A stretch of 64,000 nucleotides of DNA from Acidimicrobiales bacterium (GTDB lineage: Bacteria; Actinomycetota; Acidimicrobiia; Acidimicrobiales; UBA8190), in NCBI GenBank assembly GCA_035531755.1, contig DATKSK010000028.1:1-64000 (forward strand), read 5' to 3'. This document shows positions 52,646 through 58,868 of the stretch, one piece after another. The translations under genes and the position numbers were made by a program. The notes beneath the pieces are model-generated. The model was not told the origin of the DNA, made no database searches, and saw nothing but the letters and a program-made list of their open reading frames with translations. How positions within the stretch are numbered: the first letter of the stretch is position 1; every line of letters starts with the position of its first letter.

Positions 52646-52894
52646 TCAGCGAGCAGGCGACGTGGAAGTGCCGGCGTCGGCGACGGTGCTCGTCGTGGCT
52701 GTGGCGGTGCTCCCGGTGCCGGCCGACGGGAAGTGGACCGGCGGTCGGAGGGCCGGTGCCGGGCTGCTCGTGCGGAGCGTGGGGGCCAGGTTGAGCAGGG
52801 CGACGACGCCGGCGACCACCACCGCCGACGGTAGGTAGCGCCGGACGAGGACGAACGCTCCCACGACCGGCCCGCGCCGCCGCGTGCCGGCCAT
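52646..52894 (-). CDS. Small membrane-anchored protein
   Basis: 82 residues. A basic start (RRR), one hydrophobic segment (VLVRRYLPSAVVVAGVVALLNLAP), then a Pro/Ser/Thr/Ala-rich tail with no domain. The ATG at 52894 shares one base with the stop codon of the fused ABC transporter, so translation would be coupled. Inferred to be a single-pass membrane protein of the transporter operon. It may be an accessory or stabilising peptide, or a chance frame. Confidence 0.45.
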   Translation of the reverse strand: MAGTRRRGPVVGAFVLVRRYLPSAVVVAGVVALLNLAPTLRTSSPAPALRPPVHFPSAGTGSTATATTSTVADAGTSTSPAR

Positions 52895-55800
52895 CACCCC
52901 ACCCCCCGGGTCGCCAGCGCGTGCGCGGGCTCGGTGGCGGCGCGCCCGCCGAGCAACTCCTCGGAGCCGAGGTAGGCGGCCACCACCGCGGGGTCGTCGA
53001 GGACGTCGGCCGTGCCCCCTTCGGCGATGACCTCCCCGACGTGCATGCAGGCGATGCGGTCGGCGATGGAGGTCACCAGGGGGACGTCGTGCTCGATCAC
53101 CACGAAGGACGCGCCCGTCTGGTCGCGCAGGGCCAGGAGCATCTCACCCAGCGCCTCGGACTCGCGCTGCGCGATCCCGGCGCTGGGCTCGTCGAGCAAC
53201 AGCACCTCGGGCTCGTGGGCGAAGACAGCCGCCAGCTCGAGCACCCGGCGGGTCCCCGAGCTCAGCTCCGACACGGCGTGCTCCCGGAACCGGTCCAGCC
53301 CGAACAGCACCACGATGCGGTCGACCTGGCCGTCCACCTCGACCTCGGACCTGATGGCGGCCGCCAGCCGCAGGGCACCCGCCACGGGGTCGCGCACCGG
53401 CACGTGACGCTCGAGCGACGTCCTGAGCACGTCGGCGACCGTCATGGCGGGGAACAGCCTGGCGTCCTGGAACACGCGCCCCAGACCGCGCGCCGCTCGC
53501 CGCGCCGGCGACAGCCTCGTGACGTCACGGCCGTGGAGGCGGACGCGGCCGGCGTCGGGGACGACGAACCCCGAGCACACGTCGAACAGCGTCGTCTTGC
53601 CGGCGCCGTTGGACCCGATCACGCCCACGATCTCGCCCGGCATGACCCGGAGGCTCACGTCGGTGAGGGCGGCGACGCCGCCGTACTGCTTCGTGGCGCC
53701 GACCACCTCGAGGGCGGGAACCGGTTCGATTCCGCAGATCGCCCGAGCCGGGTGCGCGCCCGGCGACCAGGACCGCGACACAGTGGCCGCCGGCCCGCCG
53801 GCCCCATCGGGGACGGCCGCCAACCGGTCGACACCGTCGGGTGCAGCCGTCAACCCGTCGGGGAGTGCGGCCGGCCTGTCCGCACCGTCCGGGACGGCGA
53901 TCAGTCCGTCCCCGGCATCGGAGGTCCCTGCCATCGACGACTCGAACGCGTCGGGGACCGCCGTCATGGCGCGGCGAAGATCGGCGGCGGACACCGGGTC
54001 GGGCGCGGACACCGGGTCGGGCGCGGCCACCGGGTCGGGCACGGCCACCATGCCCGTCGTCCCGTCGTCGACGCCCGGCGCCGGGGCGGGATCGGGCACG
54101 TCGGGTCGAGCGAACGGTAGGAGGCCTCCGCCGAGGATGACCGCCACGTCGTCGGGCGTGAGGACCGTCGGCGGCGCGCTCGGAACCGCCGCCGCCCGGA
54201 CGGCGACGGGCGGCTCCCGGTGCTTGGCCCGGACGGCGGCGTGCATGAACACCGAGCGCAGCAGGTCGGGCTGGTGCGCCAGCTCGGGCGTCGGACCGCT
54301 GAAGCGCAGCCTGCCGCGCTCCATGAAGACGGCGCGGTCGGAGATCGACGCCGCCAGGTTGACGGACTGCTCGACGATCACGACGGTGACCCCGCTCTCG
54401 GCCAGGTCGCGCACTACCTGCACGAGATCGCCCACGACCGTCGGGGCCAGCCCGAGCGACAGCTCGTCGATGAGCAGCAGGCGCGGCCGGCACAGCAGCG
54501 CCTGGGCGAGCGCGAGCATCTGCTGCTCGCCTCCCGACAGCAACCCGGCCCGCTGGCGACCGCGATCGGCGAGGCGGGGGAAGATCTCGAGGATCCGGTC
54601 GGTGGCCGCCCGGGCGAAGGCCTCGTCGTGGTGGTTGCGCCGGGCCAGCCACGCTCCCATGCGCAGGTTCTCGCCGACGGTCAGCGACGGGAAGACGCCG
54701 CGTCCGCCGAGCACGGTGACGATGCCGGCCTCGACGCGCCGTCGTGGGCTCCAGGAGCTGATGTCGGTCCCGAGGTACCGCACCGACCCGGCGGCCGGGC
54801 GGATCAGGCCGGCGGCGACCTTGAGGGCCGTGGTCTTGCCGGCGCCGTTGGTGCCGAGCAGCGCGACCACCTCCCCCTGGGCCACACCCAGGTGCACGCT
54901 CCGCAGCGCCGGGACCCGGCCGTAACGGGCGTCGACGTGCGCCATGGCGAACATCGACCTGCGGCCGTCGGGGGGGCGGGCGTCGACCGGGGCGCCGTCG
55001 AGGCTCGGCGCCTGCCAGTGGACCTCGAGGTCCTCGAGTGCCGCCAGGCGAAGGGCGGCGGTGTGCACGGGCACCCCGGATCCCGGGCGGGCGTCGTCCC
55101 ACGACGCATCGGCGGCGGCACCGGGCGCAGCCGCCCGGTCGGGCACGGGACCGACGGCACCGCCGCCGGCGGTGCCGTGTCGGGCGGCCCGACGACCGGC
55201 CCCCGGGGGGTCGGTGCCGGCGCGCCGGGCGAGCACCGAGAGCGCGGCATCGCGCAGCCGGAACACGATGCCGCCGAGGCCCTCGGGCCACACCATGAGC
55301 ACGACGAGCAGTCCCGCACCCGACACCACCAGCTGCCACACGTCGGGGAGGAAGCTCGCCGAGCCCCGGATGTAGAGCGCACCCAGCACGCCGCCGGTCA
55401 ACGACCCCAGGCCGCCGATGACGGCCATGGCGAACACGCTCACGGACTCGTCGGGGGGGAACCCCGCCGGGGCCTGGGGGATGCCCTGCTGCGCCACCAC
55501 GAGCAACGATCCTGCGACGCCCGCCAGGGCGCCGGCGATGGCGAATGCCATGAGTCGCGACTTGAGCGCGCTTATGCCGTAGGCGGACGCACCACGGGGG
55601 CTCTCGCGCACCGCCACGATGACGCGCCCGGCCCACCCCCGGCGCAGGTTCCACGCCAGCGCCACGGCCAGCACGAGGAAGAGGAGACAGAACTCGTACA
55701 GCGTGTAGGGCGAGTGCAGGTCGAAGCGCCCGAAGAGCACGGGCTGCGAGACCGACGACGGGGTGAGCCAGGGCACATACGCCGACGACAACAGGAACGA

Positions 55801-57213
55801 GGACGCCACCACGGCGAAGGCGAGGGTGGCGACGGCGAGGTACAGGCCCTGGATGCGCAGGGCCGGGATGCCGACGACGCAGGCGACGACGGCGCCCGCC
55901 GCCGAGGCCGCCACCATGGCCACGAGCAGGTCGAGGTGCACGTGGACGACGAGGGCGCCGGTGACGGCGGCCCCGATGCCGACCAGCGCGTACTGCCCCA
56001 GGCTGATCTGGCCCGCCCAGCCGGCGAGCACGACGAGCGACACCGCGATGATCCCGTAGATGGGGACGTAGGTCAGCGTGCTCAGCCGGGGGGCGGGCAG
56101 CTGGAGGGGGATCACGACGGCGGCGGCGGCCACGGCGACGAGGCCGACCGCCCTGGCGGCCTTCACGGCGCGCAGCGCACTGAGCGCGGGCGCGATGCGC
56201 GGGATCTCGCGCAGGGCCACGAAGCCACCGAAGGCATTGCCGTCGGGTCGGCGGGTCACCCGCCGCTGCAGGAGCAGTGCGGCCAGGATGAGGACGAAGG
56301 CGATGACGTCGGTATAGGGGGCCTGGTGGTAGCTCCACGAGCTCGCCTGGCTGACGATCGCCAGGACCACCGCCCACAGCACGGTCAGGGGCAGCGACTC
56401 CATGCCCGCCAGGACGGCGGCCGCCAACGGCGTGAGGAGCGTGGCGGGCCCCGAGGCGACCCCGACGTTCTGCCCGAGGATGGGGGCCGACAGGATGGCG
56501 CCGACACCGGACAGGCCCGCGGCCACCATCCACGTGATGGTGCTCAGCCGCCGGACGGGTATCCCGAGGAGCACGGCCCGTTCGGCGGAGTCGGCGGCGG
56601 CGCGGATGGCGGTGCCGGTGTCGGTGCGCTGGAAGAACCAGTACAGCGCACCGAGCGCCACGGGCACGACGCTGAGCGCCAGCAGGTCGTCGCCCGAGAA
56701 GGTGAACGGGCTCACGCGGAAGTGGAAGGAGAACGGCGTCGTGAAGGTGGTCGTCGAGTGCGAGGGCTTGAGCTGGCGCGGCAGCTCCACCTGCGCCGCC
56801 CCCAGGAGCTGCGCCAGCCCGATGGTGGCGACCGTGAAGATCATCCGCGGGGCGTCGGTGAATCGGCGGGCGACGACGACGTCGACGAGCCACCCCGTCG
56901 CCACCGCCCCCGCCAACCCCACGGGGACCGCCACGTAATACGACCAGTGCTCGCCGGTGACGAGGACGATGGCCAGGGACGCCGCCAGGCCGCCGATGGC
57001 GGTCTGGGCGAAGTTGATGATGCGCGTCGACCGGTAGACGAGGACGAGGCCCATGGCCACGAGGCCCTGCAGACCGCCGAGCACCAGGCCGCGGAGGAGC
57101 ACCCCGGCGGGGAGATGGCTGGGCAGGAAGCGGTCGGCCACGACGTAGGCGCCGACGATGGCGGCGGCGCCGATCGTCCATGCGCCGATCCGGCCGCGCC
57201 CCGCACCGCTCAT
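52894..57213 (-). CDS. Four-domain fused branched-chain amino-acid-type ABC transporter
   Basis: 1439 residues without interruption. Residues about 10-315 form a LivH-like permease (LVLVYRSTRIINFAQTAIG); about 345-645 a LivM-like permease (VLAGWAGQISLGQYALVGIG); about 725-960 a LivF-like ATPase with Walker A GTNGAGKTT at 787-795, signature LSGGEQQ and Walker B LLLIDE; about 1150-1420 a LivG-like ATPase with GSNGAGKTT at about 1200, LSSGTRR and LLLDEPSAG. Two low-complexity linkers (about 645-725 and 960-1145) join them. These are separate genes in most bacteria. It would import branched-chain amino acids, amides, urea or organic acids. ATG 57213 overlaps the binding-protein stop by 4 nt. Confidence 0.9.
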   Translation of the reverse strand: MSGAGRGRIGAWTIGAAAIVGAYVVADRFLPSHLPAGVLLRGLVLGGLQGLVAMGLVLVYRSTRIINFAQTAIGGLAASLAIVLVTGEHWSYYVAVPVGLAGAVATGWLVDVVVARRFTDAPRMIFTVATIGLAQLLGAAQVELPRQLKPSHSTTTFTTPFSFHFRVSPFTFSGDDLLALSVVPVALGALYWFFQRTDTGTAIRAAADSAERAVLLGIPVRRLSTITWMVAAGLSGVGAILSAPILGQNVGVASGPATLLTPLAAAVLAGMESLPLTVLWAVVLAIVSQASSWSYHQAPYTDVIAFVLILAALLLQRRVTRRPDGNAFGGFVALREIPRIAPALSALRAVKAARAVGLVAVAAAAVVIPLQLPAPRLSTLTYVPIYGIIAVSLVVLAGWAGQISLGQYALVGIGAAVTGALVVHVHLDLLVAMVAASAAGAVVACVVGIPALRIQGLYLAVATLAFAVVASSFLLSSAYVPWLTPSSVSQPVLFGRFDLHSPYTLYEFCLLFLVLAVALAWNLRRGWAGRVIVAVRESPRGASAYGISALKSRLMAFAIAGALAGVAGSLLVVAQQGIPQAPAGFPPDESVSVFAMAVIGGLGSLTGGVLGALYIRGSASFLPDVWQLVVSGAGLLVVLMVWPEGLGGIVFRLRDAALSVLARRAGTDPPGAGRRAARHGTAGGGAVGPVPDRAAAPGAAADASWDDARPGSGVPVHTAALRLAALEDLEVHWQAPSLDGAPVDARPPDGRRSMFAMAHVDARYGRVPALRSVHLGVAQGEVVALLGTNGAGKTTALKVAAGLIRPAAGSVRYLGTDISSWSPRRRVEAGIVTVLGGRGVFPSLTVGENLRMGAWLARRNHHDEAFARAATDRILEIFPRLADRGRQRAGLLSGGEQQMLALAQALLCRPRLLLIDELSLGLAPTVVGDLVQVVRDLAESGVTVVIVEQSVNLAASISDRAVFMERGRLRFSGPTPELAHQPDLLRSVFMHAAVRAKHREPPVAVRAAAVPSAPPTVLTPDDVAVILGGGLLPFARPDVPDPAPAPGVDDGTTGMVAVPDPVAAPDPVSAPDPVSAADLRRAMTAVPDAFESSMAGTSDAGDGLIAVPDGADRPAALPDGLTAAPDGVDRLAAVPDGAGGPAATVSRSWSPGAHPARAICGIEPVPALEVVGATKQYGGVAALTDVSLRVMPGEIVGVIGSNGAGKTTLFDVCSGFVVPDAGRVRLHGRDVTRLSPARRAARGLGRVFQDARLFPAMTVADVLRTSLERHVPVRDPVAGALRLAAAIRSEVEVDGQVDRIVVLFGLDRFREHAVSELSSGTRRVLELAAVFAHEPEVLLLDEPSAGIAQRESEALGEMLLALRDQTGASFVVIEHDVPLVTSIADRIACMHVGEVIAEGGTADVLDDPAVVAAYLGSEELLGGRAATEPAHALATRGVG
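53987..54040. repeat. 18-bp in-frame tandem repeat in the ABC linker
   Basis: Three copies of GCGGACACCGGGTCGGGC, the third with one change. On the minus strand they encode Pro-Asp-Pro-Val-Ser-Ala units in the linker between the two ATPase domains, so changes in copy number would lengthen or shorten the linker without breaking the frame. Confidence 0.88.
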
Positions 57214-58868
57214 GACGGGCACGTCGGCTGTGTGTGGGGCGGGACGCCGCTGGCGCGGCTGCTCGGCGCGTCCCCGCCGCCGGACGGAGCGGCGAACCGG
57301 AAGACCTTGCCCCTGTCACAGGGCACGAAGGCGCCGAGCTGTCCGTCCTGGCGGCTCGTGGCCGTCGGGCTCCAGCGCAGGAGCTGGTAGTCCGACGCCG
57401 GGTCGACGCTGCCGGGACCGAACGACCACCCGCCGAGCTGGCCCCCGGGGGCCGAGGGGGCGAGCGAGGCGGTGTCCGCCATGGCGGCGTGCAGCGTCCG
57501 GGGGGTCAGATCGGGCCCCGCCGCCTGCAGGAGGTCGAAGAAGTACAGCATCGAGCCGTAGACGAAGGGGTACGACGGGAGCAGGCCGTCCTGCGAGCCG
57601 CCGTTCCCGAGCTCATAGGCCCTCACGGCCTCCTGGTCGGCGTGCGCCACCGTCGCCGTGCCGGTGGCCAGGATGCCGGCGGCCTCGTCGGCCGCGCCCG
57701 ACTTGGTGACCTCGTTGCGCACGAAGGTGTCCTGGTTGTCGCTGTTGCCGGCGAAATAGGACTGGAACACCCACTCGGGGCGGTACCCGTCGGCATGGGC
57801 CGCCTGGAGCAGGAACACGGGTGTCACCGGGTCGCACGAGGAGCAGATGATCGTGGTCACACCGTGGGACCGCAGCTGGGCGACGGCGTCGGCCGAGGAC
57901 TGCACGAGGGTGGCCGGGTCGAAGGTGAACCCGACGTCGACCGCCGAGGGGTGGTGCGCGGCGGTGAGCGCAGCCTCGACCTCCTGGGCGCACACCGTGG
58001 CCGTGGAGTTGTCCGGGTAGACGATCCCGTACACCCGGTCCTTGGCCCGCAGGTCGGCCTCGCCGGCGAACACGGCGGGGCGCTCGGACATGCCCGTGCC
58101 GAGCAGGTCGCCCAGCGCCGACGCGCCCTTGGTGCAGTTCGGCCCCGTCGTGTACTGGTACGGGGACGCCTGCCGGTACCACGACGCGTCCTGGAGGTAC
58201 AGCCCGAACGACGCCACGCCGCGCGCCTGGAGCGCGCCGGTGTAGATCACGCTCGAGTCCACGAGCGACATGTCGGCGAACCCGTGGATGGCGGACGACA
58301 CGGTGAGGGCGTCGGCCTGGGCCTCGGCCATGCCCGACCCGGTGTCCTCGGTGATGAAGTTCCCCTGGCCGTTGTAGGTGCGCAGCACCACCTTGCGCCC
58401 GTAGAGCTCGAAGTAGTGGTTGAACGTGTTCACGTAGGCCTGCATCGTGTGCACCGCTTCGTCGTTGGTGCCCACGGTCGCCGGCGGGATGAGGGCGTAC
58501 AGCTCCTGGAGCTCGTTGGTCGCCGCCAGCCGGTAGACGAGCGTGATGGTCTTCGACGTCACCCCGTTGGAGGTGGCGCCCCCGTTGTCGCCGTGCCACG
58601 CCGGCTCGCACACCGGGGCGTAGGCCGACCACGGCACCTGGCGCACGCCCGGACCGCAGGAGATGCCGCCGACGGTCGTGCCGGGCGTGCCCGGCGCGGC
58701 CGGCGCGGTGATGCGCGACGCCACGCCGGTGGACGAGGCGGTGGCCGAGATCTTGGGCGACAAGAGCAGCAACAAGGCCAACCCGGCAATGAGGCCGACG
58801 GTCACTGCATGGCGCCGGGCCAACGCGGTCGACCGACGCCCGTGCTGTCGCGGCCTGTGACCGCTCAC
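57210..58868 (-). CDS. ABC substrate-binding protein (Leu/amide-binding type)
   Basis: 552 residues from GTG 58868 with GGCGGGG upstream. A basic start and hydrophobic segment (about 20-37) form a signal anchor or uncleaved leader without a lipobox. The body follows the type I periplasmic binding fold: ITLVYRLAATNELQE, VNTFNHYFELYGRKVVLRTYNGQG, RVYGIVYPDNSTATVC and YRPEWVFQSYFAGNSDN. It delivers substrate to the fused transporter encoded next, whose start overlaps its stop by 4 nt. The length is about 130 residues more than usual, with several cysteines. The substrate is not evident. Confidence 0.83.
   Translation of the reverse strand: MSGHRPRQHGRRSTALARRHAVTVGLIAGLALLLLLSPKISATASSTGVASRITAPAAPGTPGTTVGGISCGPGVRQVPWSAYAPVCEPAWHGDNGGATSNGVTSKTITLVYRLAATNELQELYALIPPATVGTNDEAVHTMQAYVNTFNHYFELYGRKVVLRTYNGQGNFITEDTGSGMAEAQADALTVSSAIHGFADMSLVDSSVIYTGALQARGVASFGLYLQDASWYRQASPYQYTTGPNCTKGASALGDLLGTGMSERPAVFAGEADLRAKDRVYGIVYPDNSTATVCAQEVEAALTAAHHPSAVDVGFTFDPATLVQSSADAVAQLRSHGVTTIICSSCDPVTPVFLLQAAHADGYRPEWVFQSYFAGNSDNQDTFVRNEVTKSGAADEAAGILATGTATVAHADQEAVRAYELGNGGSQDGLLPSYPFVYGSMLYFFDLLQAAGPDLTPRTLHAAMADTASLAPSAPGGQLGGWSFGPGSVDPASDYQLLRWSPTATSRQDGQLGAFVPCDRGKVFRFAAPSGGGDAPSSRASGVPPHTQPTCPS

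Follow-up and report, generated by a model that had tools for sequence, protein, structure and literature searches.

The window analysed here, a 64,000-nucleotide stretch of a contig from an Acidimicrobiales bacterium, very probably encodes the entire core of a Liv-type (HAAT-like) ABC importer as one polypeptide, served by an adjacent type-1 binding protein. An uninterrupted ORF runs along the minus strand from 57213 to 52894 and specifies 1439 amino acids plus a terminal TGA, with LivH-, LivM-, LivF- and LivG-like domains in sequence; translation of 52894-57213 on the plus strand hits a stop, and only the minus strand reads through as 1439 residues. An alternative GTG start lies nine bases upstream of the ATG at 57213 and would give 1442 residues. 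The gene, its parts and the gene next to it are as follows:

52894..57213, minus strand: four-domain Liv-type ABC importer chain, 1439 aa (ATG at 57213, TGA at 52894-52896)
56239..57213, minus strand: LivH-like permease, residues 1-325 (BPD_transp_2; aligned H domains)
55264..56181, minus strand: LivM-like permease, residues 345-650 (BPD_transp_2 at 378-639; alignment)
54958..55263, minus strand: M-F linker, residues 651-752, low complexity (alignment columns 760-800)
54259..54957, minus strand: LivF/UrtE-like ATPase, residues 753-985 (Walker A GTNGAGKT, LSGGEQQ, LLLIDE, Gln at H-switch)
53719..54258, minus strand: F-G linker, residues 986-1165 (three 18-nt tandem units and several PDG motifs)
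52954..53718, minus strand: LivG/UrtD-like ATPase, residues 1166-1420 (Walker A GSNGAGKT, Q-loop VFQD, LSSGTRR, LLLDEP, IEHD, C-terminal BCA_ABC_TP_C)
57210..58868, minus strand: substrate-binding protein gene, 552 aa, directly upstream of the transporter gene (signal-peptide-like N-terminus, type-1 periplasmic binding protein fold)

Within the 1439-residue chain Pfam recognises BPD_transp_2 (the LivH/LivM family) twice, at 211 bits where the cut-off is 26.8, ABC_tran twice, and a C-terminal BCA_ABC_TP_C domain, the last also above its cut-off. Domain-specific searches give the order H, M, F, G, and both kinds of ATPase are present: one carries the LivF-type LSGGEQQ and VEQ, the other the LivG-type Q-loop and EHD. 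Two claims of the initial annotation hold on this evidence: the four domains share a single frame, as the minus-strand ORF and the Pfam stretches show, and they are joined by two low-complexity linkers (about 106 residues between M and F, about 182 between F and G). GC content peaks at codon position 3 in 67 of 70 windows along the ORF, and the other three windows lie in its Ala/Gly/Pro-rich linkers. A search for internal re-initiation in both linkers found no start with a Shine-Dalgarno-like sequence.

Occurrence and evolution of the fusion

The four-domain chain is a standing architecture of the Acidimicrobiales, soil and water bacteria, and not a one-off. A profile HMM was built from 21 four-domain chains, and a match was counted as end-to-end when it covered at least 1150 of 1259 positions. 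Such matches were found in at least 60 of 298 sampled Acidimicrobiales genomes (76 chains in 21 families); these counts are lower bounds, since the large scans scored only the best few candidates (about two) per genome. In a phylum-wide sample of 396 genomes, four-domain chains came from Acidimicrobiales and, outside the class, from a single genome (G447, locus L273); other orders of the same class have a few (G071, G055, G098 and G102). With about two candidates scored per genome, neither the 201 Chloroflexota nor the 299 Pseudomonadota genomes scanned yielded a four-domain chain, the latter sample having no positive control. The chain had at first been called unusual, and this is right in part: by these two samples it is rare across bacteria, but it is not isolated, being common within Acidimicrobiales. 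Most Liv-type loci examined from other phyla have H, M, G and F as separate genes; a broad contig scan brought up mainly classic four-gene loci, without any of the closest relatives; and a plasmid search found generic ABC ATPases only, with coverage of the query below 80% in every record. The open-licence literature searched holds no description of a fused LivHMGF chain, a single-polypeptide prokaryotic importer or an “Acidimicrobi-” fusion, and the chain is a new architectural variant within a known importer family, with no earlier description in that literature.

Other arrangements of the same domains were also seen (written below with a slash between genes). The source genome (G000) has at least five further Liv-type systems, on contigs C68, C30, C11, C60 and C10 (L039-L043), among which the architectures HM/FG, F/HM/G, HM/GF and HM/G/F occur. 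Further partial fusions include F/HMG in L070, in L076 and in L078 (the last from Acidimicrobiia SZUA-87), HMG in L150, and HMF/G in Sphaerisporangium (L134). One of the 201 Chloroflexota genomes (G821, L287-L289) has Acidimicrobiia-type HM and FG genes, through either transfer or misbinned contigs.

A FastTree tree of 115 systems, calculated from 1041 columns of the four domains with the linkers left out, places the window protein in a clade in which all 34 sampled members are four-domain chains (support 100). Fusion state changes at least seven times over the whole tree, likewise when only starred branches are counted; inside the group with F before G it changes six times. The nearest unfused relatives are HM/FG systems, in which a permease fusion and an ATPase fusion are two genes. 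In 46 of the 48 such pairs compared, the FG frame is shifted by one base relative to HM, the pattern that a 4-nt ATGA overlap would give. HMFG probably arose from the two-gene HM/FG arrangement; on the most economical path the two frames fused on several occasions, and reversals are possible.

Linkers, ATP sites and predicted structure

The linkers differ from the domains in how they evolve. Four close pairs of relatives give dN/dS values of 0.03-0.25 for the domains and 0.21-0.76 for the linkers, and linker indels between close relatives are whole codons. Judging by these values, all four domains are under purifying selection; the linkers are less constrained and change in the manner of coding sequence. 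Among other fused chains, the F-G linker can be down to 24 residues long and the M-F linker 46. The M-F linker (54958-55263) is otherwise variable, but a stretch TAALRLxALEDLE within it is common to the window protein, L044, L045, L048, L049, L050 and L053, which suggests a conserved short helix. In the F-G linker, three 18-nt tandem units at 53981-54049 encode PDPVSA-like repeats, and such units are a likely source of its length variation.

Two alternative accounts of the single frame turn on these linkers. The first is that it is an artefact of assembly or sequencing that unites two or more genes, an account to which the 77-contig state of the source assembly and the weak third-position GC bias in the three linker windows lend some colour. 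We give it almost no weight: the same fusion recurs in the 60 independent Acidimicrobiales genomes and throughout the clade of 34, linker dN/dS is below 1 with indels in whole codons, and the M-F linker has residues in common with the nearest relatives in the same frame. Because independent relatives carry the same chain, chance or a frameshift artefact is very unlikely, and the single-frame, four-domain ORF is real and confirmed. The second account accepts the frame and holds that the chain is a precursor cleaved in its linkers, the working transporter consisting of four (or two) subunits. The linkers are long, rich in Ala, Pro and Gly, of variable length and under weak constraint, and could leave the chain open to proteolysis after synthesis; they are also low-confidence regions in the structure model described below. 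But the aligned linkers show no conserved cleavage motif, and the short F-G and M-F linkers of other chains imply that tethering without cutting is plausibly tolerated. Cleavage is therefore an unlikely account, and an intact single-chain importer is the reading preferred here.

In the ATPases, the Walker, signature and switch motifs are all retained across the four-domain chains; in the window protein the Walker-B Glu is E917 in F and E1342 in G. The G ATPase has His at the H-switch and a signature of the form LS[ST]G[TS]RR. At the H-switch, the F ATPase carries Gln in all systems compared, classic four-gene ones included, and its signature is LSGGEQQ in nearly all; the position of PEGR in ordinary LivF is PGGR in the window-type F ATPase. 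The LSSGTRR signature of the second ATPase had been thought atypical, a description that did not survive comparison: 45 of 56 four-domain chains have LSTGTRR, and the sister HM/FG systems have LSTGSRR or LSTGTRR. Given the predominance of LSTGTRR, an LSSGTRR-type signature is a trait of the clade and not a peculiarity of the window protein. ABC ATPases pair head-to-tail, so that the signature of one domain and the Walker motifs of the other form a site. In the proposed mechanism, the canonical ATP site would combine the Walker motifs and His of G with LSGGEQQ of F, and the Walker motifs and Gln of F would face LS[ST]GTRR of G in a degenerate site.

A structure model was taken from a homologue, L273 (1195 aa, all four domains, about 50% identical to the window protein), whose linkers are the shortest in the window protein's own clade; it was predicted with AlphaFold on an alignment of 49 chains. 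Over the whole chain of 1195 residues the model has a pLDDT of 86.3 and a pTM of 0.86, and confidence drops below 50 solely in three joints and the C-terminal end. Its ATPase pair aligns with DppD, the fused ATPase of M. tuberculosis DppABCD, over 475 residues (Z 28.1, rmsd 4.6). Domain contacts, as judged from pTM and this ATPase-pair alignment, support but do not prove that one chain folds as one full transporter. The early suggestion of a monomeric full transporter thus finds its sole support in the predicted structure of this homologue. In such a transporter, the LivH-like and LivM-like halves would form the translocation pathway, and the LivF-like and LivG-like ATPases would sit beneath them as one head-to-tail pair. 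The disordered linkers would merely tether domains that in other bacteria are assembled from four proteins, and the fusion would set a 1:1:1:1 stoichiometry.

Binding protein and substrate class

The ATG of the four-domain gene (57213) and the stop of the binding-protein gene overlap as ATGA, so the two genes very likely form one operon; a promoter scan around it, of a kind that covers actinobacterial promoters poorly, found no promoter-like site. Substrate delivery would fall to the exported type-1 binding protein, the product of the gene immediately upstream. Pfam gives no convincing match to the 552-residue protein itself; of 38 relatives, 20 match Peripla_BP_6. A profile of the family matched no sequence in the PDB, and the fold was therefore examined by structure: the model (pLDDT 85.8) matches leucine-, hydroxybenzoate- and coumarate-binding proteins, and the match of the predicted fold to leucine-binding protein identifies a type-1 periplasmic binding protein beside the transporter. 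Relatives of the binding protein adjoin the transporter in most loci, and in some (L191, L207 and L049) two copies of its gene flank a fused transporter. The family also has an N-terminal cysteine pair, C71 nearly invariant and C87 invariant, possibly a disulphide.

Which substrate class is served can be approached from the neighbouring genes and from the family models. In one relative (G004) the G side has the same acyl-CoA dehydrogenase and thioesterase as the window, and past the binding protein comes a thiolase-like gene; another (G013) keeps the nitronate-monooxygenase, hydrolase and GH1 genes. The gene neighbourhood by itself gives a weak hint, taken with low confidence, of a small acid that is broken down via its CoA thioester. 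As to branched-chain amino acids, the NCBIfam LivF and LivG equivalog models both fall below cut-off on the window chain. A different possibility is import of urea or other short amides, as by UrtABCDE, and not of an amino acid or acid. It draws on the NCBIfam models, of which UrtE and UrtD score highest on the window chain. But the UrtE score (312 against a cut-off of 285.8) sums two ATPase stretches, UrtD at 287.9 is below its cut-off of 304.1, the neighbours examined include no urease-type gene, and the fold of the binding protein resembles those of leucine- and aromatic-acid-binding proteins (the fold alone does not give the substrate). An amide importer is accordingly quite improbable, and the Liv-type (HAAT-like) assignment is retained.

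Known systems and MFS-ATPase chimeras

Likeness to the branched-chain amino-acid importer LivKHMGF of E. coli (HAAT) lies in two LivH/LivM permeases, LivF/LivG ATPases, a type-1 binding protein and Gln at the LivF H-switch. LivHMGF is encoded by four genes, usually in the order H, M, G, F, whereas the window has one ORF in the order H-M-F-G, whose G ATPase carries LS[ST]GTRR and whose F ATPase has PGGRG in place of PEGR. The HM/FG and HM/MFS-FG relatives, from this lineage and ones near it, have the same four domain families, F before G and the same family of neighbouring binding proteins, but two genes where the window has one. DppD/OppD of the mycobacterial peptide importers (8wdb, 8j5r) likewise place two ATPases in one chain to drive an importer; their permeases are separate and come from another permease family, whereas those of the window are in-chain. 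The full-length eukaryotic transporters ABCB1 and ABCA4 also have all four core domains in one chain, in the order TMD-NBD-TMD-NBD and with other transmembrane folds. In contrast, the window chain has the order TMD-TMD-NBD-NBD with Liv-type permeases.

The MFS-FG relatives are considered more surprising than the four-domain chain of the window. In about 28 HM/FG loci the FG gene starts with a complete MFS_1 domain of about 430 residues (12-TM), in frame with both ATPases. MFS_1 scores 105-143 bits in the eight chimera proteins tested, against a Pfam cut-off of 33.4, and the 28 or so loci include those of the single-contig genomes G042 and G018. No paper on MFS-ABC chimeras was found in the open-licence literature. 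MFS-F-G fusion genes, in operons of the form HM/MFS-F-G, occur at the following positions and in about 20 more loci:

L278:3931-6930, plus strand
L057:1664-4774, minus strand
L063:1660-4776, minus strand
L279:1100-4141, minus strand
L276:3125-6151, plus strand

A bolder and rather doubtful reading would be that Acidimicrobiia have repeatedly rebuilt the Liv importer, as HMFG monomers and as HM/MFS-FG systems with an MFS carrier covalently joined to the two ATPases, giving a prokaryotic family of full-length importers in which a primary and a secondary transporter could share their coupling to ATP. The MFS-ATPase chimeras, if functional, would pose a new question about how primary and secondary transport are coupled. 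For single-molecule and cryo-EM studies of importer mechanism, a single-chain Liv-type importer would offer unusual simplicity, because stoichiometry and choice of partner are fixed, and in a single chain either ATP site could be mutated independently of the other. Repeated switching between one gene and two offers a natural experiment on why fusion persists.
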